This document shows positions 1,065 to 25,201 of a stretch of 64,000 nucleotides of DNA, piece after piece. The notes beneath the pieces were generated by a model. It was not told the origin of the DNA, did not search any database, and saw nothing but the letters and a program-made list of their open reading frames with translations. The DNA is from Verrucomicrobiota bacterium (lineage in GTDB: Bacteria; Pseudomonadota; Gammaproteobacteria; Nevskiales; Nevskiaceae). The DNA is taken from the NCBI GenBank assembly GCA_903970595.1, contig CAJCJI010000178.1, positions 1 through 64,000 on the forward strand, read 5' to 3'. Every line of letters starts with the position of its first letter. Within the stretch, counting starts at the first letter, position 1. The position numbers and the translations under genes were made by a program.

Positions 1065-4000
1065 CTAGGGGCCGTTGGTGACGACAAGCGTCGCACTCGT
1101 CGTGACCGAGGACTGGGGATCTATCACTGTGATCGTGGACGTCCCTTGGGTAATCGCGGTCGTAAGACCATTAGAACCGGGGACGTTGCTGACGTTGGAA
1201 ACAGTCGGCGCGCTGCTGGACCAGGTGACCTGGCTGGTCACATCGAATGTGGAGCTATCCGAATAAGTTCCGGTGGCCGTGAATTGCTGCGAGGAACCTG
1301 CGACGACGTTGGCACTTGCAGGGGTCAAGGTTATGGACGTCAAGGTGGCGGAGGTGATGGTGAATGTCGCTGTGCTGGTTATGGCGCCTTCAGTGGCCGC
1401 AATCGTTGAGGTCCCTGAGGTGTAGGTGGTGGCAAGCCCGCTGGTGCCGCTTGCATTGGCGATCGATGCCGCGGAGCCGTTGCTGGACGTCCAAATGGCC
1501 TCGCTAGTGAGGTCTCTCTGGGTTCCGTCCGAGTAGGTGCCGGTGGCCGTAAATTGCTGCCGTACCCCCGGAGGTGCGGTGGGGGCGGACGGCGCAATCG
1601 AGATCGATTGCAACGAGGCCGTATTCACGACGACTGCGACCGTGGAACTGCCAATGCTTCCGGTTGAAGCGCTGACATTGGTCGTGCCCGACGCCACTGA
1701 CTGCAGGAGACCATTCGAGCCGGAGGCGTTGCTGATGGTGGCAACGCCCGTATTGGAGGACTGCCAGGTTACCGTCGTCGTGATGTCTCTGGTGGTTCCG
1801 TCAGAGTATGTTCCAGTTGCAGAGAATTGCAGCGATTCGTTGATTGGCACGCTGGCTCCGCTTTGCGCGCCACCTATGGAAATTGATAACAGGCTCGCGG
1901 ACGAAACCGTCAAAGAAGCTGCTCCGCTCAGGCTCGATACCTGCGCGGAGATTGTGTAAGGACCACCTGCGTCAACTCCCGTTGCCAAGCCGTACGATCC
2001 GGAAGCGTCACTGATAGGGGCCGCCACTGTATTTGAAGACTGCCAGTCGACCTGTGTAGTCAGATCGAGCGTGGTGTTATCGGAAAACATTCCGGTCGCG
2101 TTGTACTGCTGGGTGGCGCCGACGGGGATGCTGGTTAAAAATGGCGCAGCTTGCACAGAACCCAATGTTGCGCCGGTGACGGTCAATCCAGTCGATCCCG
2201 ACATCGTCCCCAATTGTGCCGTGATGTTGGTGCTGCCTGCCGCAATGCCGCTTGCCACCCCGGCGGCGCCCTGCGCGTTGCTCACCACAGCGATGTTGGC
2301 GTTTGAGGATTGCCAGGAAGCCTGGCTTGTAACATCGCTCTTGCTGCTGTCCGAATAGAGCCCGGTTGCCTGAAGCTGGCGGCTGAATCCGGCCGGCACC
2401 GCCGAATTGGCAGGCGTCAACTGGATGGCCTTGAGCGTGGCGCTGGTGACTGTCAAGGCACTGGATCCGGACGCTCCGCTGTAGGCGGCCGATATGGCCG
2501 CAGTTCCGACGCCGGCGGCGGCAGCCAAACCATTCGTTCCCGCGGCATTGCTGATGGTAGCCACGTTGGTGTTCGACGAGCCCCAGCTTGCGCTGCCGGT
2601 CACGTCCTGTGTGCTTCCGTCGTTGAACGTCGCCGTGGCAGCGAATTGTTGCGATAGACCCTTGGCGATGGAAGCATTTGTGGGAGTCACCGCCACCGAT
2701 GTGGCCGCTGCGCTGCTGACAGTGAGCGTAGCAGAGCCGGTGAGACTGTCGAATGTCGCGGTAATTGCGGTTGAACCCGGTCCGACGGACTGGGCAAAGC
2801 CGATTGACCCGGCGTTGTTGCTGATTGTTGCCACCGTTGAGGCTGCCGATGCCCATGTGGCGGTTTGGGTAACGTTCTGTACTGTATGATCCGAAAATGT
2901 CGCGGTAGCCGTGAATTGCTGCGTAGTCCCATTGGCGATGGTGGGGTTCGCGGGGGTCACACTGACGCTCGTTGCTACGGCAGCGGTAACCGTCAGCGAA
3001 GCAGTGGCGGCCTGATTGCCAAAGCTCGCGCTGATGGTCGTTGAGCCGACGACCAAGGTTTGCGCCAGACCTGGGCTTCCGGCGTTACTGATCGTAGCCA
3101 CGGCCGTGTTCGAAGAGCTCCAAACCGCTGATTGTGTGACATCCTGCGTGTTGCTGTTGGAAAACGTCGCCGTTGCCGTGAATTGCTGGGTCATACCGTT
3201 GGCGATCGATGGCGTTGCCGGCGTTATCGCAAGGGAGGTCACAATGGCCGAAGACACGGTCAGTGTGGTCGATCCGGTTTGGCCATTGAGGGTGGCGGAA
3301 ATCGTGGTCGTGCCGGAGGCGATAGCCTGCGCTAGGCCTTCACTGCTGCTGGCATTGCTGATGGTCGCGACCCCAACGTTGGAAGAGCTCCAGGTCGCGG
3401 TGGAAGTAACATTCTGCGTGGTGTGGTCGGCGTAGGTTGCGGTGGCCGTGAATTGCTGCGTGGTACCGCTGCCGATGGTCGTCGCGGCTGGGGTTATCGC
3501 AATGGATGTAATGACCGTGGACGAAACAGTCAGCGTGGTCGATGCGGTCTGACCGCTGAATGCAGCGGTGATCATCGTCGTCCCGGCAGCCACTGCCTGG
3601 GCCAGGCCCTCACTGCCGCTGGCGTTGCTGATGGTTGCGACCCCGACATTGGAGGAAGCCCAGGTCGCGCTATTGGTGACGTCCTGCGTTGTTGCATCAG
3701 AAAAGGTCGCTGTGGCCTTGAACTGCTGCGTGGCACTGGCGCCGATTGAAGTTGATGCGGGAGTTACTGCAAGGCTTGAAATGACGGCGGCCGTCACGGT
3801 CAAGGTGGCCGAGCCCGATCCCCCCGGATATGCCGCCGTAATGGTCGTCGTTCCGGTTTCCAACGTCTTCGCCAAGCCGTACGTAGACGTCGTATTGCTG
3901 ATGGTGGCGACGGTTGCGTCGCTTGAGCTCCAGGTCACCGAGTCCGTTACGTCCTCGGTGTTGCCGTTTGAAAAAACCGCGACGGCCTTGAATTGCTGAC

Positions 4001-4160
4001 GGGTTCCGGCGGCGATGCTGGGGCTGTTTGGCGTGACCTCCACGTTTTGCAAAACAGGGCCAGAGCCATTTCCCGCGCTGCACGCGGACAGTGCCAGCGT
4101 TAGCAAGACCGCGCTATAGCGCAGCAGTGCACGAGTGTTTGGAAAGAGGCTGGCGCCCAT
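1065..4160 (-). CDS. Giant BIG2/Ig-like repeat lipoprotein
   Basis: The 1031-aa protein starts with a basic and hydrophobic signal (MGASLFPNTRALLRYSAVLLTLALSAC) with a good lipobox, LSAC, so a lipid-anchored surface or periplasmic protein is expected. The rest is eleven tandem modules of about 88 aa. Each follows the pattern V/ITPA..SI..G..QQFTATATFSD..TQDVT..ATWSSSN..VATISNA....GLA......GTTTI.A......G..TLTV, which is the BIG2 bacterial Ig-like fold seen in adhesins, intimins and cell-surface proteins. No catalytic domain is visible. It lies 97 nt downstream of the barrel-protein gene on the same strand, so the two may be co-transcribed. A role in adhesion or as a spacer is inferred from the fold only. 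Confidence 0.85.
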   Translation of the reverse strand: MGASLFPNTRALLRYSAVLLTLALSACSAGNGSGPVLQNVEVTPNSPSIAAGTRQQFKAVAVFSNGNTEDVTDSVTWSSSDATVATISNTTSTYGLAKTLETGTTTITAAYPGGSGSATLTVTAAVISSLAVTPASTSIGASATQQFKATATFSDATTQDVTNSATWASSNVGVATISNASGSEGLAQAVAAGTTMITAAFSGQTASTTLTVSSTVITSIAITPAATTIGSGTTQQFTATATYADHTTQNVTSTATWSSSNVGVATISNASSSEGLAQAIASGTTTISATLNGQTGSTTLTVSSAIVTSLAITPATPSIANGMTQQFTATATFSNSNTQDVTQSAVWSSSNTAVATISNAGSPGLAQTLVVGSTTISASFGNQAATASLTVTAAVATSVSVTPANPTIANGTTQQFTATATFSDHTVQNVTQTATWASAASTVATISNNAGSIGFAQSVGPGSTAITATFDSLTGSATLTVSSAAATSVAVTPTNASIAKGLSQQFAATATFNDGSTQDVTGSASWGSSNTNVATISNAAGTNGLAAAAGVGTAAISAAYSGASGSSALTVTSATLKAIQLTPANSAVPAGFSRQLQATGLYSDSSKSDVTSQASWQSSNANIAVVSNAQGAAGVASGIAAGSTNITAQLGTMSGSTGLTVTGATLGSVQAAPFLTSIPVGATQQYNATGMFSDNTTLDLTTQVDWQSSNTVAAPISDASGSYGLATGVDAGGPYTISAQVSSLSGAASLTVSSASLLSISIGGAQSGASVPINESLQFSATGTYSDGTTRDITTTVTWQSSNTGVATISNASGSNGLLQSVASGTTNVSASTGSIGSSTVAVVVNTASLQSISIAPSAPTAPPGVRQQFTATGTYSDGTQRDLTSEAIWTSSNGSAASIANASGTSGLATTYTSGTSTIAATEGAITSTATFTITSATLTSITLTPASANVVAGSSQQFTATGTYSDSSTFDVTSQVTWSSSAPTVSNVSNVPGSNGLTTAITQGTSTITVIDPQSSVTTSATLVVTNGP
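1090..4060. repeat. Eleven tandem repeats of about 265 nt within the BIG2 gene
   Basis: The DNA repeats with a period near 265 nt. Recurring words such as GAATTGCTGC appear near 1274, 1550, 2920, 3179 and 3449, and GCGTTGCTGATGGT-like words also recur. The modules are diverged rather than identical. The two ends of the array differ most from the middle: repeats 7 to 9 have WQSSN where the others have WSSSN or WASSN. The array could expand or contract by recombination. Confidence 0.75.
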
Positions 4161-8181: not shown

Positions 8182-9264
8182 ATGGCCGAACAACCGGAAC
8201 AAGACCGCACTGAGCAGGCGACGCCATTCAAGCTGGACGAGGCGCGGGACAAGGGCCTGGTGCCCCGCAGCGGGGAAGTCAGTGTGGCCGCCGGCTTGAT
8301 CGGCGCGGTGCTGTGTGTGGCGATGTTCTCCGGCTGGATGATGCAGCAATTGCTGCAGTTGCAGCGGCGAACGCTGCTGCAGGCGGGGGGCTGGAGCTTT
8401 GACGTCTCGCATGTGACACATTGGCTGGCGCTGCTCGGCGGGCGCGGTCTTTACATCCTCAGCCCCTTGTTCGCGCTGGTCGTCGTGGCCGCCGTGCTGG
8501 GCAATTTTCTGCAAGTGGGCCCGGTTTTCAGCACGACCGCCCTGAAACCGGATTTCACGCGGCTCAACCCCGCCACCGGCCTGCGTCGCATCTTCTCCAG
8601 CCGCAGCGTCTTCGAGCTGATCAAGGTTCTGGCCAAGCTGCTGCTGTTCGGGGGTATCGCCTATGCGGTGATGAGCGGCTTGTTCGCGCGCCTGCCGCAG
8701 TTTTATCAGATGCCCGTTGCGGGCTATCCTTCGGCCCTGCGGCACGAGGTGATGCGCCTGTTGGAGGCGTTGACCGGCGCGGCAATTTTCGTCGCGATCG
8801 CTGACCTGGTCTTTACCCGCTGGGAATTCGGCCGCCGTATGCGCATGAGTCGGCGGGAACTGCGCGACGAGCTCAAGCGGCGGGAAGGCGACCCCCAGAT
8901 CCGCAGCCGGCGGCGGGCTGCGATGCGGGAAATGCGCAAGCGCACCGCCGCCCTGGGCAAGGTCAAGGACGCCGATGTGATCATCACCAATCCCACGCAC
9001 TATGCGGTTGCGCTCAAGTACCGGCGGGGCAAGGCGCCGGCCCCGGAAGTCATTGCCAAGGGTTCCGGCGGCATGGCACGGGCGATGCGCGAGCTGGGCT
9101 TCCGTTACCAGGTACGTATCGTATCCAGCCCTGAACTGGCGCGTGCCCTGTTTCGGGACGTGCCGCTTGGCGGCATGATTCCGGTCAAGCACTATGACGA
9201 AGTGGCGGCAATCCTGCGCCGCGTATACGAAGCCATGGGCCGAAAAATGGACAAGTTGAGATGA
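8182..9264 (+). CDS. flhB: Flagellar export switch protein FlhB
   Basis: The 360-aa protein has the N-terminal EQDRTEQATPFKLDEARDKGLVPRS signature, four membrane helices and a cytosolic domain with the self-cleaving NPTH motif (Asn270) in VIITNPTHYAVALKY. Cleavage at this site switches export from rod/hook to late substrates, so an intact NPTH suggests the switch is kept. The C-terminal region (VRIVSSPELARALFRDVPLGGMIP) is complete. It overlaps flhA by four bases. Confidence 0.95.
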   Translation: MAEQPEQDRTEQATPFKLDEARDKGLVPRSGEVSVAAGLIGAVLCVAMFSGWMMQQLLQLQRRTLLQAGGWSFDVSHVTHWLALLGGRGLYILSPLFALVVVAAVLGNFLQVGPVFSTTALKPDFTRLNPATGLRRIFSSRSVFELIKVLAKLLLFGGIAYAVMSGLFARLPQFYQMPVAGYPSALRHEVMRLLEALTGAAIFVAIADLVFTRWEFGRRMRMSRRELRDELKRREGDPQIRSRRRAAMREMRKRTAALGKVKDADVIITNPTHYAVALKYRRGKAPAPEVIAKGSGGMARAMRELGFRYQVRIVSSPELARALFRDVPLGGMIPVKHYDEVAAILRRVYEAMGRKMDKLR

Positions 9265-11318
9265 ATATCCTGAAGATGGCGTTCGGCTCCCGCAGTGATC
9301 TGGCAATCATCCTGGCGGTGCTTGGCATCCTGTTCGTGCTGTTCTTTCCGATTCCGTCGCCGCTGCTGGATTTCCTGCTGATCCTGAACCTCAGCTTTGC
9401 CATGCTGATCCTGCTCCTGACCTTTTATACGGACAAACCGCTGGGGTTTTCCACCTTTCCCTCACTGCTACTGATCGCCACGCTGTTCCGGTTGTCCCTC
9501 AACGTCGCCGCGACCCGGCTGATCCTGTCGAAAGGGGACGCCGGGCATGTCATCGCCACTGTCGGTACCCATGTAGTAGCCGGTAACTATGTGATCGGCC
9601 TGGTAGTTTTCCTGATTCTCATCGTGGTGCAGTACGTGGTTGTGACGAGCGGCGCGCAGCGTGTCGCCGAAGTGGCTGCGCGATTCACCCTGGACGCCAT
9701 GCCGGGCAAGCAAATGAGCGTCGACGCCGAAATGAACATGGGCCTGATCGATGAGAAGGAGGCCAGGCGCCGCCGCTCGGAGATCGAAAAGGAGGCCAAT
9801 TTCTACGGCGCGATGGATGGGGCCAGCAAGTTCGTCAAGGGCGATGCGGTCGCCGGCATCATCATCATCCTGATCAACATCATTGGCGGCCTGTCGGTCG
9901 GTTTGGTGCAGCGGGGGCTTTCGTGGGCGCAGGCGCTAAATTTGTACACGCTGCTGACCGTAGGCGATGGCATTGTGACGCAGATCCCGGCATTGGTGAT
10001 CGCCACCGCCACCGGCATCATCGTCACGCGCGCGGCCACCGACGCGCATCTGAGCGAGGAAATCGCCAAACAGGTCACGCGCTATCCTAAATCGCTGGTG
10101 ACGGTTGGGGTGGCCCTGATGCTGTCCCTGTTCATGCCCGGAATTCCAGTATTTCCCGTGCTCATCCTGCTTGCTGTGGATGCGGGCCTGCTGGCTATTG
10201 CCGTCCGAACGAAGGGTAGGGAAGCAACCGACGCCGCCGCGGCACTAGTGGGTCCCAGCGACGGCTTGCCCGCGCAGGAGGACCTCACAGCGTTGCTTCC
10301 GGTAGATCCTATCGAGGTCCAGATTGGACCCGCGCTGGTGCCGGTACTGGGTCAGACGGAGGGGCCTTTCATGCGTCGCGTTCAGGCATTCCGTCGCCAG
10401 TATGCAATCGATTACGGCTTCGTCTTTCCGCCGGTCCGCGTGCGCGAGATTGCCAAGAAAAGCGGCGACGAATACGAAGTTCGGATTCAGGGCGCGAAGA
10501 TCGCCTCTGGGCAACTGCTACCCGAGCAGGTGTTGGCGATCAACCCTGGCGGCGAGCGGGCCCGCCTGGCCGGAACCGCAACCCGCGACCCGACATTCGG
10601 CCTGGCGGCGGTGTGGGTTCCGGAGCGCGAACGCGAGCGTGCGCAGCGGGCGGGCTATACGGTGGTTGATCCGGTGACCGTCATCAGCACCCATTTCAAT
10701 GAACTGATCAAGACCCATGCGGCCGACCTGCTGTCCCGGCCGGAAACCGAGGCCCTGCTGGGGCGTGTACGCCAGAAATATCCGACACTGGTCGAGGAAC
10801 TGCTACCTGGAATCCTGTCCTTTGGTGAGGTACAGCGCGTTTTGCAGAATCTGTTGCGCGAGAAGGTCTCGATCCGAAATCTGGAGTACATCGTCGAGCT
10901 GCTGCTGGAGCAAGGGCGCCTGACGCGGGACACCGATGTGTTGACTGAATCGGTGCGGGAACGCCTGGGCAACATCATTTGCGACCGTCTGGGCGCCAGC
11001 GACGGTTCAATGCACGTGCTGACGTTCGACCCCAAGATCGAGGAGCGACTGCGTGCAGGTCTGCGCCAGACCGACAAGCACACCGCCCTGATCATTGATC
11101 CGCCGATGGCGGAAACCCTGCTGCGACGCCTGGCACAGCGTTGCGAGGAAATGATGCTGCAGAATTTGATGCCAATTCTGTTGTGCACGCCATCGCTGCG
11201 GCGGCATGTGCGCCGGCTGACCGAGCGGGCGCTTCCGCATCTGACGGTTCTATCGGTCAACGAGGTGCCGCAAACCAGGACCATTCGGGCCTTCGCGATG
11301 GTTGAAAAAATAGCCTGA
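9261..11318 (+). CDS. flhA: Flagellar export protein FlhA
   Basis: The 685-aa product has the full FHIPEP family layout. About eight N-terminal membrane helices contain the conserved FSTFPSLLLIATLFRLSLNVAATRLIL and the cytosolic FHIPEP loop (SVDAEMNMGLIDEKEARRRR). A large soluble domain follows from about residue 320 (VQIGPALVPVLGQTEGPFMRRVQAFRRQ) to the C-terminus. FlhA forms the nonameric ring that docks chaperone-substrate complexes and uses the proton gradient. Length is normal. It ends the first gene run and is followed by the only long gap inside the block. Confidence 0.95.
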   Translation: MNILKMAFGSRSDLAIILAVLGILFVLFFPIPSPLLDFLLILNLSFAMLILLLTFYTDKPLGFSTFPSLLLIATLFRLSLNVAATRLILSKGDAGHVIATVGTHVVAGNYVIGLVVFLILIVVQYVVVTSGAQRVAEVAARFTLDAMPGKQMSVDAEMNMGLIDEKEARRRRSEIEKEANFYGAMDGASKFVKGDAVAGIIIILINIIGGLSVGLVQRGLSWAQALNLYTLLTVGDGIVTQIPALVIATATGIIVTRAATDAHLSEEIAKQVTRYPKSLVTVGVALMLSLFMPGIPVFPVLILLAVDAGLLAIAVRTKGREATDAAAALVGPSDGLPAQEDLTALLPVDPIEVQIGPALVPVLGQTEGPFMRRVQAFRRQYAIDYGFVFPPVRVREIAKKSGDEYEVRIQGAKIASGQLLPEQVLAINPGGERARLAGTATRDPTFGLAAVWVPERERERAQRAGYTVVDPVTVISTHFNELIKTHAADLLSRPETEALLGRVRQKYPTLVEELLPGILSFGEVQRVLQNLLREKVSIRNLEYIVELLLEQGRLTRDTDVLTESVRERLGNIICDRLGASDGSMHVLTFDPKIEERLRAGLRQTDKHTALIIDPPMAETLLRRLAQRCEEMMLQNLMPILLCTPSLRRHVRRLTERALPHLTVLSVNEVPQTRTIRAFAMVEKIA

Positions 11319-11476
11319 CCTGCCGGGCGCTCCTTCGCCCCAAGATATTCTTACGTTTACTTTACATTGCGCCCCGCCGCGGTGCATTGCTTCTCCGGCA
11401 GAACCGGGCACGGAGTACCGGCTTGAACGGGACTACGCAAGCGCCTGTTTCATTCAGATGTCAGCTTGGCATTGCG

Positions 11477-11504
11477 CTCGAATGTGACCTGGACCACATT
11501 CGAG
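11477..11504. promoter_or_regulatory. CRP/Vfr/Clp-type operator
   Basis: A perfect 10-bp inverted repeat, CTCGAATGTG and CACATTCGAG, is separated by 8 bp. Its core reads TGTGA-CCTGGA-CCACA. The known CRP consensus is TGTGA-N6-TCACA within a 22-bp palindrome. By eye 17 of the 20 inner bases agree with the ideal E. coli site. No T-tract follows, so it is not a terminator. CRP-family proteins control flagellar master genes in several gammaproteobacteria. The site would place the flgF-to-fliA genes under cAMP or a related signal. Confidence 0.65.
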
Positions 11505-11550
11505 GCCGATTCCTAAGTCGAATCAGCAAAAAAATTTACGCAAAAGGGTC

Positions 11551-11580
11551 TTTCTGGGCGGCGATCCGGTGATATATGAT
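11551..11580 (+). promoter_or_regulatory. Possible sigma-70 promoter for the flgF run
   Basis: TTTCTG (11551-11556) and TATGAT (11575-11580) are separated by 18 bp. The -10 matches consensus at five of six positions, while the -35 is poor, as is usual at activator-dependent promoters. The CRP-type site would be centred roughly 95 bp upstream of the predicted start, a distance that is permitted on the right helical face but is not optimal. This is a weak call. Confidence 0.3.
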
Positions 11581-11701
11581 GAATGCGATTTCGCAGGGAA
11601 TCGGCGGAAGTAACGAGGGAGCAGGTGCAAAGCCTAGCTCAGGGATCAGGGAGTGCAATTTACGACTTAGCGCGGCTTAAACTGTGCGCCTTGGGGGAAA
11701 T

Positions 11702-12421
11702 TTGGACAGCGTATTTGCGGTAGCCCGCATTGGCATGCTTGCCGATTTTGCGCGCTTATCCGTTCAGTCGCAGAATCTTGCCAATGTCGATACCGTCGGT
11801 TACAAGCGACAGGTATCAGTGACCACGGGTTTTGACGCTCGCCTTGACAGTGTGCAGCAGATCGACGACGTCAGCCTGGCGAGCACTTCGCTTACGGACG
11901 TACAGGCCGGTGTTCTCAAGGGGACCACCCGCCCGCTGGACCTTGCCTTAGACGGGGACGGCTTTTTTTCAGTTCGCACGTCCTCCGGAGTGCGGTACAC
12001 CCGGCGCGGGGATTTCTCCCTTGACGCGACTGGACGATTGGTCAATTCCGCCGGCGATCCGGTTCTGGGAGGTGGCGGCGAACTCGTATTGCCGAATATG
12101 GCTGTCACCATCGACAGTACCGGCAAGATCTTCGATTCCAATCAGCAACCGCTCGGGCAACTCGATATTGCACAGTTTTCCGATCCCAAGCGGCTTCGTT
12201 ATCTCGGCGCAGGGCAGTTCGACGCCGCGGGCCAGGCACCAACGGGAGAGGTGACCGCGACCAGGGTGCGTTCCGGATACCTTGAAGCGTCCAATGTGCA
12301 GCCGGCACACGAGATGATCGGCTTGATGGATGTATCGCGGCAGTTTCAGCTGACCAAAAGCGTACTCACGGCCCGCGACGAGATGCTGGACAGTGCGGCA
12401 AACACCCTGGCCCAGTTCTGA
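11702..12421 (+). CDS. flgF: Flagellar proximal rod protein FlgF
   Basis: The 239-aa protein belongs to the FlgF/FlgG rod-hook family. Features include the N-terminal SQNLANVDTVGYKRQ motif, LDLALDGDGFFSVRTSSGVRYTRRGDFSLDATGRLV in the middle, and SGYLEASNVQPAHEMIGLMDVSRQFQLTKSVL at the C-terminus. TTG 11702 is preferred because a GGGGGAA stretch lies just upstream and the protein then begins MDSVFAVA, parallel to FlgG. GTG 11684 is possible but has no ribosome-binding site. FlgF sits before flgG in the usual order and should form the proximal rod. Confidence 0.88.
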   Translation: MDSVFAVARIGMLADFARLSVQSQNLANVDTVGYKRQVSVTTGFDARLDSVQQIDDVSLASTSLTDVQAGVLKGTTRPLDLALDGDGFFSVRTSSGVRYTRRGDFSLDATGRLVNSAGDPVLGGGGELVLPNMAVTIDSTGKIFDSNQQPLGQLDIAQFSDPKRLRYLGAGQFDAAGQAPTGEVTATRVRSGYLEASNVQPAHEMIGLMDVSRQFQLTKSVLTARDEMLDSAANTLAQF

Positions 12422-12454: not shown

Positions 12455-13237
12455 TTGCTTGACTCGATCTACATCGCGGCAACCGGTATCGGCGCTCAAC
12501 AGACCCGCATTGATGCGATTTCCAATGACGTCGCCAACGTGAATACCACCGCCTACAAGATGCAGCGGGCCAATTTCGAGGACGTATTCTATCGTCGGGC
12601 CGCGCAGAGATCGGGCGACTCAGCGCCACTGGCGCTACCCGCGCCGGTCGGTCTGGGCGTGGCTGTGTCTGGAACCCAGACGATCTTCACCCCGGGCAGT
12701 CTGACGCAAACGAACAATCCACTGGATCTTGCGATCAGCGGCAATGGATTCTTCGAGGTGCAGATGTCGGACGGCGCCACGGCCTATACCCGTCTGGGGT
12801 CCCTTGGCCTGGATGAGAAGGGCGAATTGGTCACCCAGGGTGGTGACCCGCTCAAAGTGCGCTTCGTGGTGCCATCGACTGCGACGGCGGTACAGGTGGC
12901 GGCCAATGGCCAGGTCACCGCCAACGTGGCAGGGCAGGCAAACCCGGTGGTTCTCGGCACGCTGGAGCTGGCGAATTTTGTCAACCCCGAAGGCCTGACG
13001 CCCCTGGGTTCGGGCCTCTACGCAGCAACCAACGATTCGGGGCCCGCATTCCAGGCGGTGCCGGGCCAGGAGGGCATGGGGACCTTAAGTCAGGGCTACC
13101 TTGAGTCCTCGAATGTGGACCTGACCTCGGAACTGGTGTCGTTGACCCTCGCCCAGCAGGCCTACCAGCTGAGTTCGAGAGTGCTGCAGGTGTCCGACGA
13201 CATCCTGTCCACCATCACCAACTTCCGTCGCAGTTGA
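12455..13237 (+). CDS. flgG: Flagellar distal rod protein FlgG
   Basis: The 260-aa product starts at TTG with GGAG just upstream. It shows the FlgG hallmarks: MLDSIYIAATGIGAQQTRIDAISNDVANVNTTAYK, NPLDLAISGNGFFEVQMSDG, and the C-terminal YLESSNVDLTSELVSLTLAQQAYQLSSRVLQ. FlgG forms the distal rod, which crosses the peptidoglycan and reaches the L ring. Length is normal. Confidence 0.93.
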   Translation: MLDSIYIAATGIGAQQTRIDAISNDVANVNTTAYKMQRANFEDVFYRRAAQRSGDSAPLALPAPVGLGVAVSGTQTIFTPGSLTQTNNPLDLAISGNGFFEVQMSDGATAYTRLGSLGLDEKGELVTQGGDPLKVRFVVPSTATAVQVAANGQVTANVAGQANPVVLGTLELANFVNPEGLTPLGSGLYAATNDSGPAFQAVPGQEGMGTLSQGYLESSNVDLTSELVSLTLAQQAYQLSSRVLQVSDDILSTITNFRRS

Positions 13238-13241
13238 GCCC

Positions 13242-14225
13242 GTGTCCCCAGCGCGCCGCTACTTGGGCTTGTTGTTGGCCTCAGCATGCTGCTGCGCAGC
13301 CACGGCAGCTGCACTCGAGCCGCTCACGCTGGAGCTCCAGCCGGCTTTGACAAGTGGTTCGGCCGTGGTGCGTCTGGATCAGTTCGTCTCGATCAGCGGC
13401 GGCGATGAGGCGCTTCGGTCGCGGCTGGGTTCTGTAGAGTTGCGGCTGGTCAGCCCGCCTGGCGCCGAAGAGCGTGTCACTCGCGATGACGTATCGGCCC
13501 TGGTGGCGCTGCGCATGCCGGATCTGGCCAGCCCCCTGCTGTGGAAAGGCTCCTCGACGATTTCGCGGATTCGGGTTCAGGGCCGGCCGTTGGACTTGCA
13601 GCAACTAACGCAGGAAGGGCAGGCCTTGCTGGAAGATTGGCTGCGCGCCCGCGTCGAGCGATTCAAGGTCGTGCCGCTTTCCGACAGGCAGATCGCCGAG
13701 GCCGAGTCGGCGGCAGACGAAACCGCGACGCTGCGCCCGTTCGCCGGACCGGTGTCGGCCAGGACGGCACTCTGGGTAGATCTGGCGCGACCCGGCCGGC
13801 CTGCTCGCGGCGGCTTTCCCATCTGGTTCGCGGTGGAAGCCTGGGCCGACGCGCCGGTGGCCGCCACCGATATCATCGCCGGTACGCGGCTCAGTGCCGA
13901 GCAGGTGAGCCGATCGCTCCAGGACATCGCCGCGCTGGGTCCGAGGCCCCTGCTGACCGATGCCGACATCCCGGAGAGTGTCGCGGTAGCTCCGATACGG
14001 CAGGGAGAGGCGCTGACCAGAGACCGATTTCGCCAAGCGACGCCGGTGGTGGCCGGTGACGAGGTCCGTCTTCGCGTACAGGATGGGCCGATGCGGGTGG
14101 AAGCTCACGGCATTGCATTGGAGTCAGGAGGCAACGGCCAGCGCATCCGCGTGCGCAATTCCGGCAGTGGCGAGGTGCTGGTCGCCAGCGTGGCCGGCAA
14201 GGGGCTGGTCGAGGTGGCCCCATGA
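13242..14225 (+). CDS. flgA: P-ring assembly chaperone FlgA
   Basis: The 327-aa protein has a signal peptide (MSPARRYLGLLLASACCCAATAAA) and a C-terminal SAF/FlgA domain with DIIAGTRLSAEQVSRSLQDIA, IRQGEALTRDRFRQ and GDEVRLRVQDGPMRVEAHGIALESGGNGQRIRVRN. FlgA is the periplasmic chaperone that helps FlgI assemble the P ring. It is somewhat longer than the E. coli protein because of the N-terminal half, as in many other Pseudomonadota. It overlaps flgH by four bases. Confidence 0.88.
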   Translation: MSPARRYLGLLLASACCCAATAAALEPLTLELQPALTSGSAVVRLDQFVSISGGDEALRSRLGSVELRLVSPPGAEERVTRDDVSALVALRMPDLASPLLWKGSSTISRIRVQGRPLDLQQLTQEGQALLEDWLRARVERFKVVPLSDRQIAEAESAADETATLRPFAGPVSARTALWVDLARPGRPARGGFPIWFAVEAWADAPVAATDIIAGTRLSAEQVSRSLQDIAALGPRPLLTDADIPESVAVAPIRQGEALTRDRFRQATPVVAGDEVRLRVQDGPMRVEAHGIALESGGNGQRIRVRNSGSGEVLVASVAGKGLVEVAP

Positions 14226-14806
14226 GAAGAGATTTGTCGCAGGTCCTTATCGGCCTGTGCTGCTTGGCGGCAGGGATTTCCCAATGCACGCACGCCGGGG
14301 GTCTGTACCACCCGGATGCTTATGCACCACTGACGTCGGACTACCGCGCCTTCAAGGTTGGTGATGCCATTACCGTGATGATCGTGGAATCGGCTAGCGC
14401 CGAGAGCGACGCCGAATCCGACACCAACCGCAATCTGCAGATCACCGCCGGGCTGCAGGGTAGTTCCACGCAGCACACCGCCGGCGCCTCGCTGAGCCGT
14501 CAAAACACCAACAATGGGACCACCACCCGCAATGGCTCGCTCCAGGCGGAGATCACCGCCCGCGTGCAGTCGATCGCCGCAAACGGCGACCTGGCAATCC
14601 ACGGGACGCAATCCATCACGGTGAACGGCGAAACGCAGCGTATCGAACTGTCCGGCGTGGTGCGCTCGATCGACGTATCCGCGGGTAACGTGGTGCAATC
14701 GACGCGACTGTCGAATGCCAGTATCGAATATTCGGGGAAGGGCTTCGTCGATCGCAGCCAGAGCGAAGGCATCATTTCCCGCGTGCTCGATTTCTTCGGG
14801 CTCTGA
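14222..14806 (+). CDS. flgH: Flagellar L-ring protein FlgH (short, no clear lipobox)
   Basis: The 194-aa protein carries FlgH features: GGLYHPDAYAPLTSDYRAFKVGDAITVMIVESASA, the long Ser/Thr/Asn-rich middle, and ITVNGETQRIELSGVVRSIDVSAGNVVQSTRLSNASIEYSGKGFV. FlgH normally is an outer-membrane lipoprotein. Here the signal sequence reads LIGLCCLAAGISQCTHAGGLY and the residue before Cys is Gln, so the usual lipobox is missing. It may be cut by signal peptidase I after THA. The protein is also shorter than the usual 220 to 230 aa. Confidence 0.88.
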   Translation: MRRDLSQVLIGLCCLAAGISQCTHAGGLYHPDAYAPLTSDYRAFKVGDAITVMIVESASAESDAESDTNRNLQITAGLQGSSTQHTAGASLSRQNTNNGTTTRNGSLQAEITARVQSIAANGDLAIHGTQSITVNGETQRIELSGVVRSIDVSAGNVVQSTRLSNASIEYSGKGFVDRSQSEGIISRVLDFFGL

Positions 14807-14808
14807 GC

Positions 14809-15954
14809 GTGCGCCCGCACTTGGCCATGTTCCTACTTTGCGCCTGCGCTGCTGCTGCGGGGGTCCAGGCGAGCGCCGGGGTGCCGGTACTGGCGAAGGT
14901 GCGCGATATCGCCCGCGTCCAGGGTGTGCGTGACAATCCGCTGGTGGGCTATGGCATCGTCGCTGGCCTTGCCGGCACCGGCGATTCGGCCCGCAGCATC
15001 GCAACGCTGCAGTCCATCTCCAACGCGTTGGCACGATTCGGGGTGCGTGTGACCCCCGACCAGATCAACTCGCGCAACGTCGCCGCGGTAATCCTCAGCG
15101 CAACGTTGCCGCCGTTCGCAACGAGCGGCGACAAGCTGGACGTCAACGTGGCATCGCTTGGCGATGCGCGCAGCCTGACCGGCGGCACGCTGATGCTGGC
15201 CGCCCTGAAGGGGCCCGACGATGTCGTATACGCGCTGGCGCAGGGTCCGCTCTCGGTCGGCGGGTTCCGCTATGACGCTTACGGCAACCTGCTGGAAAAG
15301 AACCATCCGACGGTCGGCCAGATTCCCGGAGGCGCCATCATCGAGGCCGATGTGCCGACCAGCATCGTCAGCAAGGCCGGGAGTATTTATGTCGTCCTGG
15401 ACAGTCCCAACTACGTCACCGCACAGCGCATCACCGAGGCGCTCGAGGCCAAGCTTCCGCCGATGCCAGACGCCAGGATCGAACGGGTGCAGGCAGTGGA
15501 TGCCGGGCGGGTCGCCGTGCGTCTTACGCCGGAAGACCAGGCGCAGCTGGTCAGCTTCATGGCGCGGATCGAGGATGCCCAGGTAGTGCCTGATGAAGAG
15601 GCACGCATCGTGGTGAACGAGCGTACCGGCACCGTGGTGAGCGGCGGCGACGTCCGGCTGGGTCAGGTCAGCATCGCGCAAGGCGACCTGAAGGTCGACA
15701 TCTCCACGGATTATGCGCTGGCACAACCGCTGGGCATCGGCAGGGCTGGCAACCGGCCTTCCGGCCTGTTTCCCACTACCCAGATCAGTGCCGATGAAAC
15801 CACGAACGCGGCCGTCAGCCTGCCGTCGGGTACCAGCGTCGCCGACCTGGTTGCAGCCCTCAACCGGCTGAAGGTCGCGCCGCGCGACACTATTTCGATT
15901 TTGCAGGCGATCAAACGGGCGGGGGCGCTGAACGCCCAGCTCATCATTCAGTAA
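14809..15954 (+). CDS. flgI: Flagellar P-ring protein FlgI
   Basis: The 381-aa precursor has a signal peptide and the full FlgI sequence: VRDIARVQGVRDNPLVGYGIVAGLAGTGDS, NVAAVILSATLPPFATSGDKLDVNVASLGDARSLTGGTLMLAALKG, and the C-terminal LPSGTSVADLVAALNRLKVAPRDTISILQAIKRAGALNAQLIIQ. FlgI forms the periplasmic P ring. The GTG start follows the flgH stop by two bases. Presence of FlgA, FlgH and FlgI means the structure is built to cross a Gram-negative envelope. Confidence 0.95.
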   Translation: MRPHLAMFLLCACAAAAGVQASAGVPVLAKVRDIARVQGVRDNPLVGYGIVAGLAGTGDSARSIATLQSISNALARFGVRVTPDQINSRNVAAVILSATLPPFATSGDKLDVNVASLGDARSLTGGTLMLAALKGPDDVVYALAQGPLSVGGFRYDAYGNLLEKNHPTVGQIPGGAIIEADVPTSIVSKAGSIYVVLDSPNYVTAQRITEALEAKLPPMPDARIERVQAVDAGRVAVRLTPEDQAQLVSFMARIEDAQVVPDEEARIVVNERTGTVVSGGDVRLGQVSIAQGDLKVDISTDYALAQPLGIGRAGNRPSGLFPTTQISADETTNAAVSLPSGTSVADLVAALNRLKVAPRDTISILQAIKRAGALNAQLIIQ

Positions 15955-15965
15955 CGGGGGGACCT

Positions 15966-16367
15966 ATGGCAGAGGGCGCACTCATTCAGATTTCCGGCGT
16001 TACGCAACAGCTGGAGCACATGGCCTTGCGCGCCTTCGAGCTGCGGCAACGGGTCATTGCCCACAATATCGCGAACGTCGATTCCGTCGGCTTCCGTCCC
16101 TTGCGCGTCAATTTCGAAGAACAGCTGGGACCGCTGCGCGCGGCGATCGAGGCCCAGGATTCGCCCGACAGGATTGCTGCCCTAGCGGCGCAGGTCCGGC
16201 CCGAGGTGGAGACCGAGGACGCGACGGCGACTCCCTTCGCCACGCCGGGCGAGAACCTTGATGAGCAGCTCGTGGCGCTGACCAAGAACACCCTGGACTA
16301 CGAAGCCATGCTGACGGTTGTGTCGCGCCTCGGCGGACTGCGCCGTCTGGCCATCTCGGGGAGCTGA
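15966..16367 (+). CDS. flgB: Flagellar proximal rod protein FlgB
   Basis: The 133-aa product has the rod-family start LEHMALRAFELRQRVIAHNIANVDSVGFRPLRVNFEEQL and the C-terminal pattern LVALTKNTLDYEAMLTVVSRLGGLRRLAI. A GGGGGGAC ribosome-binding site precedes the ATG. It is the first gene of the flgB-flgC-fliE trio, which is usually kept together because these proteins join the MS ring to the rod. Confidence 0.9.
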   Translation: MAEGALIQISGVTQQLEHMALRAFELRQRVIAHNIANVDSVGFRPLRVNFEEQLGPLRAAIEAQDSPDRIAALAAQVRPEVETEDATATPFATPGENLDEQLVALTKNTLDYEAMLTVVSRLGGLRRLAISGS

Positions 16368-16370
16368 GTG

Positions 16371-16823
16371 ATGCAAGACTATGGTGGCTTGCTGGCAATC
16401 AGCGCGACCGGTATGCAGGCCGAGCGCCTGCGCCTGGAGGTGGCAGCCCAGAACCTGGCCAATGCGCATTCGGTGATCAGCGGTCAAGGCGAGCCCTATC
16501 GCGCGCTGCGCGTAGTGCCATATGCGGCCGGTAGCGAACTGTTCGACAACAAGTTGAAGATTTCAGCCGCTTCCGCAACAGCAGAGCTGCACGGCGTCGG
16601 TCATGTGGAGGTGGTCCCGACCGGCGCGGAGCCGAGGCTCGACCATGATCCGGGAAATCCGTTCGCCGATGCCCAGGGCATGGTGCGCGTGCCGCAAATT
16701 GATGTGGCCGATGAAATGCTCACGGTGCTGACCTCGGTCCGGGCCTACGAGGCAAACGTGCGGGCCATGGCGGCCGCGAAATCGATATTCATGAAAGCGC
16801 TCGACATCGGGAGCAACCACTGA
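16371..16823 (+). CDS. flgC: Flagellar proximal rod protein FlgC
   Basis: The 150-aa protein starts at ATG 16371 (GTG 16368 just before it is also open). It has GGLLAISATGMQAERLRLEVAAQNLANAHSVIS at the N-terminus and VPQIDVADEMLTVLTSVRAYEANVRAMAAAKSIFMKALDIG at the C-terminus, both diagnostic of FlgC. The stop overlaps the fliE start (TGATG). Confidence 0.92.
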   Translation: MQDYGGLLAISATGMQAERLRLEVAAQNLANAHSVISGQGEPYRALRVVPYAAGSELFDNKLKISAASATAELHGVGHVEVVPTGAEPRLDHDPGNPFADAQGMVRVPQIDVADEMLTVLTSVRAYEANVRAMAAAKSIFMKALDIGSNH

Positions 16824-17171: not shown

Positions 17172-18590
17172 ATGAACGCCGCGGCTCGTTTTTCGGCTGC
17201 CACGTGGTGTGGCGACCTGGATAGAAACCGCCGCTTCGGCTTGGTTGGTGGCGTGGTAGCCATCTTGGCCGCTGCTACGGCTTTTGCCTGGTTTTCCCTG
17301 CATTCGGATTTTTTGCCCCTGACCGGCGGACTTTCGAAGGAGGATACGGCAGCGACGGTCGCGCAACTCGAGGACATCCGGGCACGTTACCGTGTCGACC
17401 CATCTACTGGTGCCGTGCTGGTTCCGGCGGCGGAAATCGACACGGTCCGGGCCCAGCTTGCACAGAAGGGATGGCCGCTCAAGCCAGCGGCGGGGTTTGA
17501 ACTATTCGACAGTGGCGATTTCGGCATGACCGAGTTCACCGAGCGGATCAACTACCAGCGAGCCCTGGAAGGCGAGCTCGCTCGCACCATTATGGAGCTC
17601 GACGAAGTGCGTTACGCACGCGTGCATCTGGTGCTGCCGCAGTCCAGTTTGTTCAAGAAGTCCGGTGAGCCGCCGAAAGCCTCGGTGTTGCTGGTGGGCC
17701 GTCACGGCGACGTGATGTCGGCGCCCCAAATCGCCGGCATTCAGCGCATGGTGGCCTCGGCAGTGCCCGAGTTGAAGGCAGAAAACGTCTCGGTGCACGA
17801 TCACAAGGGCGTTGAACTGACCAGCGGCGCCGCCGGCGCGCTTTCGCCGGAAGCGGTGGATACCGCAATTCGCGCACAGTCGGATGTCGAAGACTTTCTC
17901 TCCGCGAAAGCGGAAGAGATTCTTTTGCGGGTGTTTCCTGATGGAACGGCGACGGTCAGCGTCAATGCCACGTTGACGCGCAGTCAAGTGTCTAGTGTTC
18001 GTGACGAGGTCCTGCCGAGCGGGCAGGGCTCCGGAACGGTATCGCACATCCGGTCGGACACGCTGCCTGATGTCGTTTCCGCGGCATTGCCACATCTCGC
18101 ACGAGATCCCGCGGCCGCCCCGCACTCTGATGCTGCCGCGCCGGAATTTGATGTGGAATATCGGATTGGGCACCTTACCGAGCAATCCGAGTCGGCGCCG
18201 GGCGGTATTGAGCGTTTGTCCGTAGGGGTTGTCATTCCGGATCCGTCGGCTCAAGGCCTGACGGTGGACAACGTGCGGGAGTTGGTGGCTGCGGGCATTG
18301 GCATCGATGCTCAACGCGGTGATCGCATCGCCGTTTATCCCGTGGCGTCGCTGACGAAGAGCGTTGCCGCGGGCGGCGCGCATGGCAGCCCGAGTGTTAC
18401 TGGCCCGGACCGGGCCGCGCCCGGTCCGGGCCCGGCGGAGCCCAAACCTTATTGGGCATTGCTACTGGGTATTGCCGCCTTGCTCGGTGCGGTGTTGGTG
18501 TGGCTTGGCCGTCCCCGGCGCCACCAGACATTGACCGCGGCCGAGCGAGAGGAGCATCTCAACAAGGTGCGGCAATGGCTCCAGCAGTGA
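17172..18590 (+). CDS. fliF: MS-ring protein FliF (compact)
   Basis: The 472-aa protein has two membrane helices, VGGVVAILAAATAFAWFSL near residue 30 and YWALLLGIAALLGAVLVWLG near 440. Between them are the ring-building motifs, with FTERINYQRALEGELARTIMELDEVRYARVHLVLPQSSLF and VPELKAENVSVHDHKGVEL. It ends EREEHLNKVRQWLQQ, the short acidic/aromatic tail that binds FliG in other systems. It is shorter than the usual 530 to 570 aa, mainly in the periplasmic insertion before the second helix. FliF forms the inner-membrane ring that houses the export gate. Confidence 0.92.
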   Translation: MNAAARFSAATWCGDLDRNRRFGLVGGVVAILAAATAFAWFSLHSDFLPLTGGLSKEDTAATVAQLEDIRARYRVDPSTGAVLVPAAEIDTVRAQLAQKGWPLKPAAGFELFDSGDFGMTEFTERINYQRALEGELARTIMELDEVRYARVHLVLPQSSLFKKSGEPPKASVLLVGRHGDVMSAPQIAGIQRMVASAVPELKAENVSVHDHKGVELTSGAAGALSPEAVDTAIRAQSDVEDFLSAKAEEILLRVFPDGTATVSVNATLTRSQVSSVRDEVLPSGQGSGTVSHIRSDTLPDVVSAALPHLARDPAAAPHSDAAAPEFDVEYRIGHLTEQSESAPGGIERLSVGVVIPDPSAQGLTVDNVRELVAAGIGIDAQRGDRIAVYPVASLTKSVAAGGAHGSPSVTGPDRAAPGPGPAEPKPYWALLLGIAALLGAVLVWLGRPRRHQTLTAAEREEHLNKVRQWLQQ

Positions 18591-19147
18591 AAGCCGCGGC
18601 GGAATCCCCGGTTGTGGCTGGACGCAAGCGCGCTGCGGTGCATCTGGCGATGCTTGCGCCTTCTGATCGCAACTGGATATTGAGCCATTTACCGCCTGAG
18701 CTGCAGGATGAGATACGCACTCTGTTGAAATCGCTGCGGTCGCTGGGTTTGGCGAATTTGGCAGCCTTGCGTGCCGAGATTGAAGCACTGCTCGCAGCAC
18801 CGGGTGCCCCCAGGGAGGTGTCCGTCGTCCAGAGACAGCCGCCGGAGCAGGTCGCGACTACAGGGCCTCTGGAACGTGCCTCGGCGGACGAGCTCGGGGG
18901 CATCTTGCGCGAGCTTCCATTCGGATGTCTGGACTTACTCCGTGCACGCATGCCAGCCAGTCGAAGGCACATTGTCTCAGCGGTACAGTTGCGTCACGCA
19001 GGTGCCGATGACAGCCTCAGGTCCAGTCCCGACGTGAAACGGGTCACCGAGGCATTCATCGACGCGCTCGCAGTGATCGTGGAACAGCGCTTGGCGCAGA
19101 GCGAAACGAAGCCCTCAGGCATCGACCTTGCAACGAGTCCAGCATGA
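18575..19147 (+). CDS. Minimal FliG-like protein without a recognisable torque domain
   Basis: The gene sits in the fliG slot between fliF and fliH and overlaps fliF by 16 nt. The 190-aa product is only a little over half the length of FliG (about 330 aa). Its N-terminal part, GRKRAAVHLAMLAPSDRNWILSHLPPELQDEI, has the look of FliG's armadillo-like ring-forming helices, and a second similar piece is LERASADELGGILRELPFGCLDLLRARMP. The middle-domain EHPQ motif and the C-terminal charged helix that meets MotA in rotary motors are not found. I infer an adaptor that couples FliF to the FliM/FliN ring without torque. Homology to FliG is supported by position and weak pattern only. Confidence 0.55.
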   Translation: MAPAVKAAAESPVVAGRKRAAVHLAMLAPSDRNWILSHLPPELQDEIRTLLKSLRSLGLANLAALRAEIEALLAAPGAPREVSVVQRQPPEQVATTGPLERASADELGGILRELPFGCLDLLRARMPASRRHIVSAVQLRHAGADDSLRSSPDVKRVTEAFIDALAVIVEQRLAQSETKPSGIDLATSPA

Positions 19148-19908
19148 CGCCTGCCGAGCCAGATCGGTCAATTCTTCACTCTCCGCGAGTCGAGGCGGTA
19201 CCGCGTCGGCTCGGCAGCAGCGCCATTGCTAAAACCCTGCCATCGCCGAATCAGCGGTCCTCTTTGCCCGGATTCGCCGAGATCGCGTCGGAGTCAAACT
19301 CCGGCGTGAGTCCCGAGGCTATCCGGCAGCCTCTGCCGGCACAGATTCCGCCTGAGTTGATACGCGCTGCCGAACATCGCGGTTACGAGGCGGGATTTGC
19401 CAAGGGGAATCAAGCAGTTCGAGGCGAATTCAGGGCCGTTCTGGAACGGCTGGACATTTTGCTGGAGTCCATTGCACAGAAGCGGGATGACCTGCTTGAA
19501 GTCCTTGAAGACGATCTGGTGGAGCTTGCCTTCGAAGCCGCGGCTTTGGTCATAGGTGATGCCGGCGTGCAGCGCGACCTCGTGGTCGAAACGGTCCGGC
19601 GAGTTCTCGCCCAACGATCTGACGCGCATATTGTTGTGGTACGGATTGCTCCCGCGGATTTAAAGCTCGTGGCGGAGTCGGAATCCGGCGCCACCTTGGG
19701 ACTGGGATCGAGAATCAGGCTGCTGGGCGACCCGGAGATTGCCCTTGGCGGCTGCGTAATCGACACCGGGCAAGGTACTTTGGACGCGAGGCTGGAACTG
19801 CTGCTCGCCAAGCTGCGCAGCGCGCTGCTCGAGGCCCGCAGCAAGAGCGCGGACGCGGTGCGGACGCGTGTCCCGCCCTTGTTGGACGGCGCGAGCGGAT
19901 CCCCTTGA
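19144..19908 (+). CDS. fliH: Export ATPase regulator FliH
   Basis: The 254-aa protein has a variable N-terminus, the Gly-containing helix AAEHRGYEAGFAKGNQAVRGEF, a long coiled-coil stretch (LERLDILLESIAQKRDDLLEVLEDDLVELAFEAAALVIGD) and a C-terminal domain with VRIAPADLKLV and LGGCVIDTGQGTLDARLELLLAKLRSAL. This is the FliH/SctL layout. FliH tethers the FliI ATPase to the C-ring. It overlaps its neighbours on both sides by four bases. Confidence 0.88.
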   Translation: MTPAEPDRSILHSPRVEAVPRRLGSSAIAKTLPSPNQRSSLPGFAEIASESNSGVSPEAIRQPLPAQIPPELIRAAEHRGYEAGFAKGNQAVRGEFRAVLERLDILLESIAQKRDDLLEVLEDDLVELAFEAAALVIGDAGVQRDLVVETVRRVLAQRSDAHIVVVRIAPADLKLVAESESGATLGLGSRIRLLGDPEIALGGCVIDTGQGTLDARLELLLAKLRSALLEARSKSADAVRTRVPPLLDGASGSP

Positions 19909-21230
19909 TTCCGATGCTTGCCAAGTACGCCGACTCTCTGCGCCGCCAGGAATGGGTCCAGCGCACCGGCACCGTGCGTGAATGCGTGGGCTCGATCATC
20001 GTTGCCAATGGACCGGACGCTGCGCTGGGAGAACGCTGCCAGATCGTGATCGGTGGCGGCCGACAGTCCGTCGATGCCGAAGTTGTGGGCTTTCGCAGCG
20101 ACAGCGTGTTGCTGATGCCTTATGCGGAGCTGGCGGGGGTGCGCCCGGGCAGCAGCGTGATCGCTACCGGGCGATTTCCCGAGGTCGCGGTCGGGCAGGG
20201 GTTGCTCGGGCGGGTCGTCGACGCCTATGGCCAGCCGATCGACGGCAGGCCTCTGACTGGAATCGCGGGCCGCCGCCCGATCCACGGCCAGCCAATTAAC
20301 CCGCTCAATCGCCGGCGCATCCGGGAGATTTTCACAACCGGCGTCAAAGCGATAGACCTGTTTTTGACCCTGGGGGTCGGACAGCGCATTGGCTTGTTCG
20401 CCGGCAGTGGCATCGGCAAGAGCGCGTTACTGGGGATGATTGCCAAGAACAGCGCCGCCGACGTCAACGTCATCGCCTTGGTCGGCGAGCGCGGCCGTGA
20501 GGTGCGGGACTTCGTGGAAGATCACTTGGCCGACGGATTGAGCCGGTCGGTGGTGGTGGTGGCATCGGCGGAGCAGAGCCCTTTGGTCCGATCGCAGGCG
20601 GCATTCGCCGCCACCAGCATCGCGGAATATTTCCGTGATCAGGGGCTTTCCGTTTCACTGTTGCTGGATTCGATTACGCGTTTCGCCATGGCGCGACGCG
20701 AAATTGGCCTGGCTGTCGGGGAGCCGCCGACTGCTCGCGGCTACACGCCCACGGTGTTTTCCCTGCTGCCGCAGCTGCTGGAGCGCGCGGGGAGTTATTC
20801 GAAACAGGGTAAGGGCGCCATCACGGGGCTGTACACGGTTCTTGTCGAAGGCGACGACCTCAACGAGCCTGTCTCCGACAGCGTGCGCGCCATACTCGAT
20901 GGTCACATCGTGCTGTCCCGCGACATCGCCAATCATGGGCGCTATCCGGCGATTGACCTGATGGCCAGCGTCAGCCGGCTGTTTTCGGTTCTAGCCGACG
21001 AAGGGCAGAAGCGAGCGGTCTCGAAAGTGATCAGGCTGCTGGCGACCTACGCCGATTCGCGCGATGCGATCGATCTGGGCGCGTACAAAGCTGGAAGCAA
21101 CGCGGAGCTCGATGAAGCCATTAAACTGCTGCCCGGCATCGAGCAGTTGCTGCGACAGCCGGTCGAGCAAAGCGTGCCGCTGGATTTGGCGCGCAAGCAA
21201 TTGATCGCGCTCACCGGAGGCGCCACTTGA
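19905..21230 (+). CDS. fliI: Flagellar export ATPase FliI
   Basis: The 441-aa protein is a standard F1-like export ATPase. The Walker A motif is GLFAGSGIGKSALLGMIAK, Walker B lies in LSVSLLLDSITRFAMARREIGLAVGEPPTARGYTP, and the QPVEQ/AxK-type tail is present. TTG 19905 overlaps the fliH stop, and ATG 19914 is an alternative. It unfolds and delivers substrates to FlhA with FliH and FliJ. Confidence 0.96.
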   Translation: MIPMLAKYADSLRRQEWVQRTGTVRECVGSIIVANGPDAALGERCQIVIGGGRQSVDAEVVGFRSDSVLLMPYAELAGVRPGSSVIATGRFPEVAVGQGLLGRVVDAYGQPIDGRPLTGIAGRRPIHGQPINPLNRRRIREIFTTGVKAIDLFLTLGVGQRIGLFAGSGIGKSALLGMIAKNSAADVNVIALVGERGREVRDFVEDHLADGLSRSVVVVASAEQSPLVRSQAAFAATSIAEYFRDQGLSVSLLLDSITRFAMARREIGLAVGEPPTARGYTPTVFSLLPQLLERAGSYSKQGKGAITGLYTVLVEGDDLNEPVSDSVRAILDGHIVLSRDIANHGRYPAIDLMASVSRLFSVLADEGQKRAVSKVIRLLATYADSRDAIDLGAYKAGSNAELDEAIKLLPGIEQLLRQPVEQSVPLDLARKQLIALTGGAT

Positions 21231-21691
21231 GCCGGAATACAAACGGGCACTCGCGCGCGCTTCAGTTGGTGGAAGCCAATCTGCGGCAGGAACTGCGTGA
21301 GCGTGCAAGTGCGCACGCGCTGGATCTGGGGACCTTCCATTTCGCCGAAGCCGCGATGCGATCATTGGAATTGACGGTAACCGACCGGGAAGCCGCACTA
21401 CGTACCCGGCTCTCCGACGTCCGGGAAACATTGGATCCTGCCATGTTGCTTCTGTTCCATGCGGCGCTTGCCGACGGGCGGCAGGAGCATCATTTCGCAG
21501 CCCAGGTGGCGGATAAGGCCGAAGCGGACCTAGACGCCAGCCGCGACGCCTTGTATCAAACGCTCAAGCGGCGCAGCGTGCTGAAGGATGTCCGAAGGCA
21601 GCGAACTCGAGAGGATTCCCTCGAAGAATCGAAGCGGCAGGCATTCGAACTCGACGCCTTGTGGTTGCAGAGCCGGTACGGCCGGCCATGA
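21227..21691 (+). CDS. fliJ: Export ATPase stalk protein FliJ
   Basis: The 154-aa product is almost entirely helical and predicted to form an antiparallel coiled coil (LVEANLRQELRERASAHALDLG, ALYQTLKRRSVLKDVRRQRTREDSLEESKRQAFELDALWLQ). The end of the protein follows the FliJ/SctO pattern, and the gene follows fliI with a four-base overlap. FliJ is poorly conserved, so the call relies on size, coiled coil and position. Confidence 0.75.
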   Translation: MSRNTNGHSRALQLVEANLRQELRERASAHALDLGTFHFAEAAMRSLELTVTDREAALRTRLSDVRETLDPAMLLLFHAALADGRQEHHFAAQVADKAEADLDASRDALYQTLKRRSVLKDVRRQRTREDSLEESKRQAFELDALWLQSRYGRP

Positions 21692-22362
21692 TCTCCGTCC
21701 TGCAGGAGTCGTATCCAAGCGCGCTCCCTGCGAGGCTGGGTGAGCGCTTCGCTGAAAGCACCCGCCTGGGCTGGGAATTGTCAGACTTCACGAATCTCTT
21801 CGAGAATCAGCTGGTGCAGTTTGCGCGGGGTTCGGCGTCCGGCCTTCAACACGGCGGAGACGGGTTCCCGGATTTCGTCGCAGCGGCGGTTGCAGGTGCC
21901 GGCAACATCGCTACCCCCTTCACTGGAATCGCCCGGATTCCCCCTGAGGATTCGACGACCGGCCCGAGTCCGACGCAGGTAGATGCACTCAATGTGGCGG
22001 CACCCGTGGAGCAGCATGATGGAATCGCGTTGATCCAGGTGCAGAAGTCCCCTGCCGAGCCTACTACTGGAAGTACCGGCGAAGAATCAGTCGACACCTT
22101 GCCCGCATCGGGCCGTGCGATCGCGGTTGATGGCGATGCGGCGCAGCATCAGCAAAATCAAAGCGTAGTGTTGGCGTTGGGCCCCGGTGGCGCCGAGGTC
22201 TACATCCGTGATGCGGTTCTGGATGCGGATGCGGGCCTTGCCTTTGCGCGGACCGCCGCCGAGCTACTGCAGCACCATCGGCTGGTGCTGGGCCGGGTAC
22301 TAATCAACGGACAAAGGGTGCATTCGGAGCCGGGCTGGCCGGATGCAACGGATTCAGGCTGA
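21688..22362 (+). CDS. Unrecognised protein in the fliK position
   Basis: The 224-aa product starts MISVLQESYPSALPARLGERF at an ATGA overlap with fliJ. It has a low-complexity middle (IPPEDSTTGPSPTQVDALNV, VQKSPAEPTTGSTGEESVDTL) and a C-terminal part VVLALGPGGAEVYIRDAVLDADAGLAFARTAAELLQHHRLVLGRVLINGQRVH. FliK, the hook-length ruler, is normally found between fliJ and flgD, is Pro/Ser/Gln-rich in its first half and has a C-terminal switch domain. The general layout fits, but I cannot see the conserved FliK C-terminal motif. It could be a diverged ruler or a substrate peculiar to this system. Confidence 0.5.
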   Translation: MISVLQESYPSALPARLGERFAESTRLGWELSDFTNLFENQLVQFARGSASGLQHGGDGFPDFVAAAVAGAGNIATPFTGIARIPPEDSTTGPSPTQVDALNVAAPVEQHDGIALIQVQKSPAEPTTGSTGEESVDTLPASGRAIAVDGDAAQHQQNQSVVLALGPGGAEVYIRDAVLDADAGLAFARTAAELLQHHRLVLGRVLINGQRVHSEPGWPDATDSG

Positions 22363-22392
22363 ATAAGCAACGCGTTCAACGAGGAGCCAACC

Positions 22393-22815: not shown

Positions 22816-22819
22816 GGCC

Positions 22820-25171: not shown

Positions 25172-25201
25172 TGTGGCTTTGGTCATTCAACGGATCGACC
25201 G

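Follow-up and report, generated by a model that had tools for sequence, protein, structure and literature searches.

In the described systems closest to the one analysed here, a CRP-type protein acts on a flagellar master regulator. According to the cited parts of the respective papers, cAMP-CRP controls flhDC in Escherichia coli, tying flagella to cAMP (PMC7247823), Vfr and CyaA activate flhDC for the second flagellum of Pseudomonas fluorescens F113 (PMC5031763), and Vfr represses fleQ in Pseudomonas aeruginosa (PMC8036289). Clp of Xanthomonas is also a CRP-family protein; the cited part of PMC6637768 describes inhibition of its DNA binding by c-di-GMP and an effect on motility.

The locus presented here lies in a 64,000-nucleotide stretch of DNA (the window) from an uncultured Nevskia-like gammaproteobacterium, known from a metagenome-assembled genome (MAG; 86.9% complete, 534 contigs). 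As far as the cited parts of these papers go, it would resemble E. coli in a link of flagella to cAMP by CRP, F113 in that a second, rare flagellar system stands under a CRP-type regulator, and P. aeruginosa in that a CRP homologue controls flagella in a gammaproteobacterium. It differs from E. coli, where CRP acts on the master regulator, in that the predicted site precedes a structural operon and the genome contains no FlhC match; from F113, where the effect passes through flhDC, in that the site stands directly before flgF; and from P. aeruginosa, where a master regulator is repressed, in its proposed structural target. Compared with these three cases, the target is changed but the kind of system is not new: the site itself is ordinary, and its location is unusual. 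No CRP site before flgF was found in the literature by title and start of abstract, a weak absence, as subscription journals are thinly covered.

We propose, with a probability of roughly 70%, that positions 11477–11504 are an operator of the host CRP/Vfr-type protein, which would regulate, and most likely activate, a spacer promoter for flgF onward. The relevant features are as follows.

9261–11318, + strand: flhA (export gate), the gene that precedes the spacer (TIGR01398)
11319–11701, no strand: flhA-flgF spacer, 383 bp, 54% GC versus 62% for the flagellar block
11477–11504, no strand: predicted palindromic CRP-type operator, 28 bp, perfect 10-bp arms (from the sequence and shuffles)
11483–11498, + strand: TGTGA-N6-CCACA core, one base off in the right half-site
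11528–11537, + strand: A7T3 tract, possible UP-like element (direct reading of the sequence)
11573–11580, + strand: TATATGAT, weak candidate -10 (direct reading; absent from the promoter scans)
11702–12421, + strand: flgF-like rod gene, presumed first downstream target (TIGR02490, 167.0 bits, below the cut-off of 178.5)
12455–16823, + strand: flgG, flgA, flgH, flgI, flgB-like gene and flgC, remaining genes of the presumed first target operon
17172–27213, + strand: fliF, a hypothetical gene, fliH, fliI, flgD, flgE, fliM/fliN-like gene, fliP and a FliA/WhiG-like sigma factor gene, possible extension of the transcript

The operator reads CTCGAATGTG-ACCTGGAC-CACATTCGAG, with perfect 10-bp arms (CTCGAATGTG and CACATTCGAG) around an 8-nt centre (ACCTGGAC). 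The sequence-only reading had described a symmetric 28-bp element with a TGTGA-N6-CCACA core and extended perfect arms, and its coordinates, sequence and core were all exact. It had also called the CRP match near-perfect. The E. coli CRP consensus is AAATGTGATCTAGATCACATTT; the operator agrees with it at 17 of 22 positions, on either strand alike, and nine of the 10 core bases match TGTGA-N6-TCACA. The right half-site reads TGTGG where TGTGA is expected, which makes ‘near-perfect’ generous. The second-best + strand score within the window was 14, and the top score in 30 dinucleotide-shuffled windows was 14 or 15 every time, never 17; 17 was likewise reached by none of 2000 shuffles of the 383-bp gap. 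The exact TGTGA-N6-YCACA core occurs a single time in the window. The palindrome on its own is not rare: 10-bp arms with a loop of up to 12 were present in 7 of 2000 gap shuffles, and the real window has them at roughly seven places (17 register hits), versus a shuffle mean of 3.0. A smaller inverted repeat, GCCGATTC ... GAATCAGC, recognized by eye at 11505–11527, directly adjoins the operator.

As the 28-mer folds to -13.7 kcal/mol and its stem is present in a larger fold, it might act as an RNA hairpin (the end of the flhA transcript, a processing site or a riboswitch) and not as a DNA operator. We regard this as very improbable: no T-run follows the stem and the terminator scan did not return the 28-mer, so that an intrinsic terminator was rejected; folding of the leader was no better than that of shuffles (z of -0.37 and 0.54); and an Rfam search gave nothing up to E 10, which led us to discard a riboswitch or other known RNA.

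The outer CTCG/CGAG symmetry of the operator lies outside the CRP consensus, and its arms continue beyond the core for six perfectly paired bases on each side, a length that none of the other eight core sites of the genome attains. These arms would also suit another dimeric regulator, either a Clp-like c-di-GMP responder or an unrelated protein that binds the full 10 bp of each arm. This alternative appears quite unlikely, since no other place in the genome repeats the extended pattern, the best of them having two mismatches in the arms, and since the only host protein with a CRP-type helix is nearer Vfr and CRP than Clp.

The preferred reading, a CRP operator, presupposes a CRP-family gene in the host, and such a gene was found. 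The genome contains 15 PF00027 matches, and recognition helices were read in eight CRP/FNR-type helix-turn-helix proteins: one, encoded on contig C217, has SREMAGR, six are of the RREG(V/I)T type and one is different. The C217 protein is the only one of the eight with R-E-x-x-x-R, which we take to be the recognition helix motif of CRP. It carries the cNMP_binding, HTH_Crp_2 and Crp domains, and passes the NCBIfam CRP equivalog NF008732 by 0.3 bits (266.3 bits, cut-off 266). In the PDB it scores highest against Vfr (206.9 bits) and CRP (up to 202.6 bits), and lower against Clp (184.8 bits). Residues of Vfr known to hold cAMP are retained in it: the Glu of FFGE, Arg in the R-S/T pair, and the Thr-Ser/Thr pair. 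After the conserved Arg it has Thr where Vfr has Ser, the position at which we assume Clp Glu99 to align. Xanthomonas Clp is alike as a CRP-family regulator, but the host protein is nearer Vfr and CRP. Six class III cyclase (PF00211) matches and two FleQ-domain matches were also present in the host genome. Cyclic AMP appears favoured over c-di-GMP as the signal, because the C217 protein is nearer Vfr and CRP, keeps the cAMP residues and is accompanied by six cyclase matches. Of the signals named in the sequence-only reading (cAMP-CRP, Vfr or Clp), cAMP-CRP or Vfr would be the best-supported, and Clp with c-di-GMP seems less likely.

The genome carries TGTGA-N6-YCACA at nine places (8 forward and 6 reverse matches); the reversed control gave one match on each strand. 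In a survey of 41 genomes, that of the host among them, the 18 belonging to the same genus gave 81 forward matches versus 14 for the control (hand-summed); no excess was observed in several further genomes from the family and order, nor, within the genus, in genome G005 (1 and 1). The operator has the best consensus score among the nine core places (17; next 16). Of the other eight, one lies upstream of sdhC, next to a gene with a GCV_T domain; one separates divergent EAL and GGDEF genes; one precedes an ECF sigma gene; one falls between an unassigned ORF and a gene with FHA and a weak cyclase match; two, in obscure contexts, are next to a panC-like gene and a transposase-like ORF, respectively; one is at a contig end; and one is within the flgE coding sequence. 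A core match alone is no proof of function, given the one inside flgE, the one beside a contig end and the two in obscure contexts. A CRP-type operator is nevertheless the best reading of 11477–11504, because the host CRP helix matches, cyclases are present and CRP-type sites are in excess. The core between the EAL response-regulator and GGDEF genes (L056 1817–1832; G000:C526:11316–11331) lies on the same contig as another flagellar set, hinting at cAMP control of c-di-GMP turnover at that site.

The flagellar block of the window extends from TPR genes (5376) to the FliA/WhiG-like sigma factor gene (27213; 101.8 bits to TIGR02479, below the cut-off of 189.6), all on the + strand, in the order fliR, flhB, flhA, the 383-bp spacer, flgF, flgG, flgA, flgH, flgI, flgB-like, flgC, fliF, fliH, fliI, flgD, flgE, fliM/N-like and fliP. 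As had been stated from the sequence, the operator occupies the single long gap of this block: among the genes considered, the other gaps above 30 bp measure 33, 49 and 66 bp (gene ends of fliQ, fliE and a fliO-like frame taken by eye from the reading frames). The only convincing downstream gene that the spacer can serve is flgF, for which TTG 11702 is a more likely start than GTG 11684, a choice that rests on comparison with relatives.

The part of the spacer 3′ of the operator is AT-richer (51% GC). If TATATGAT were a -10, the centre of the operator would be placed near -95, and together with the A7T3 tract this would suit a class I arrangement. A sigma70 promoter scan of the spacer returned none; the only promoter-like pair, a weak one of 8 points, is TTTACA-16-TGCATT, upstream of the operator. 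Other candidates for the spacer were rejected: the best match to a sigma54 (FleQ-type) promoter has two mismatches to the pattern, nothing under four mismatches was found for sigma28, and ORFs reach only 61 aa, none judged gene-like. Copied DNA was likewise dismissed, as DNA matching the spacer was found neither in the rest of its own genome nor in 60 relatives.

These promoter scans bear on the sign of the regulation. CRP bound to the operator might be repressive or silent, flgF being transcribed by read-through from flhA with CRP as a roadblock or without effect. The lack of a clear promoter downstream, the weak pair upstream, the probable transcription through this junction in relatives (judged by gene order) and the repression of fleQ by Vfr in Pseudomonas, according to the part of that paper cited above, are in keeping with such an arrangement. 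We nevertheless consider it unlikely, as the spacer far exceeds every other gap of the block in length, and the stretch 3′ of the operator is AT-richer, as promoters tend to be. In the preferred reading, activation by CRP, a rise in cAMP would cause CRP to bind 11477–11504; bound CRP would regulate, most likely activate, a promoter in the flgF-proximal half of the spacer; and this promoter would drive flgF-flgG-flgA-flgH-flgI, then rod and hook genes. Half of the second flagellum would probably be under cAMP control.

A search for flgF in 58 genomes of the family and 369 of the class (own included in both; E 1e-30) identified the flgF of the second system in eight other genomes, five of the family and three of the class. 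In seven of these eight, the end of flhA is separated from flgF by 10–33 bp to the likely start codon (by eye), or 19–58 bp when counted to the first aligned residue. The fetched stretch of the eighth contains no flhA upstream of flgF. A FlgF search of named genome contigs gave two loci, one from a Nevskiaceae MAG and the other from a Nevskia sp. MAG, and a search of viral contigs gave none; the host shares genus or family with the genomes that match these loci, hence its Nevskia-like identity. The core was scanned in three of the eight relatives: around the same genes, G005 (17.3 kb) and G026 (20 kb) had no match with 0–1 mismatch, and the 3.7-kb G034 locus had none with up to two mismatches. 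Conservation of the operator before the same gene is absent, seven of the eight relatives lacking the spacer; for a lineage-specific site such conservation is inessential. Since the junction is closed in relatives, by parsimony it was closed in the ancestor and opened in the host lineage along with the operator; the ancestral flhA-flgF junction thus seems to have been opened, and the operator gained, in this lineage. More tentatively, and with some doubt on our part, the new CRP-regulated spacer may have split an ancestral flhA-flgF operon, so that export-gate genes and rod, ring and hook genes would be controlled separately, cAMP gating structural assembly and bypassing FlhDC/FleQ. If true, this would be a regulatory rewiring, with an operator-bearing spacer exactly where the two flagellar genes of relatives nearly touch and a cAMP input directly on structural flagellar genes, not on a master regulator; it would point to a means by which a bacterium carrying two flagellar systems could switch just one of them.

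The block of the window is called a second flagellar system because another set, with hook genes, sits on contig C526. The second block encodes rod, ring and hook parts and export components but no flagellin, the assembly's only two flagellin-domain matches (PF00669) being in the other set; it may be filamentless or borrow flagellin, or the genes may be absent from the 87%-complete MAG. A tyrosine integrase gene (Arm-DNA-bind_3, Phage_integrase; 27266–28570, - strand) immediately follows the sigma factor gene at the end of the block, which suggests an island. On the other side, the block is adjoined by a gene (1065–4160, - strand) for a protein of 1031 aa that contains ten stretches of the group 2 bacterial Ig-like type (Big_2). 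The window also encodes two Ser/Thr protein kinases (33443–37093 and 39014–41860), of which one carries WD40 repeats and the other TPR repeats.
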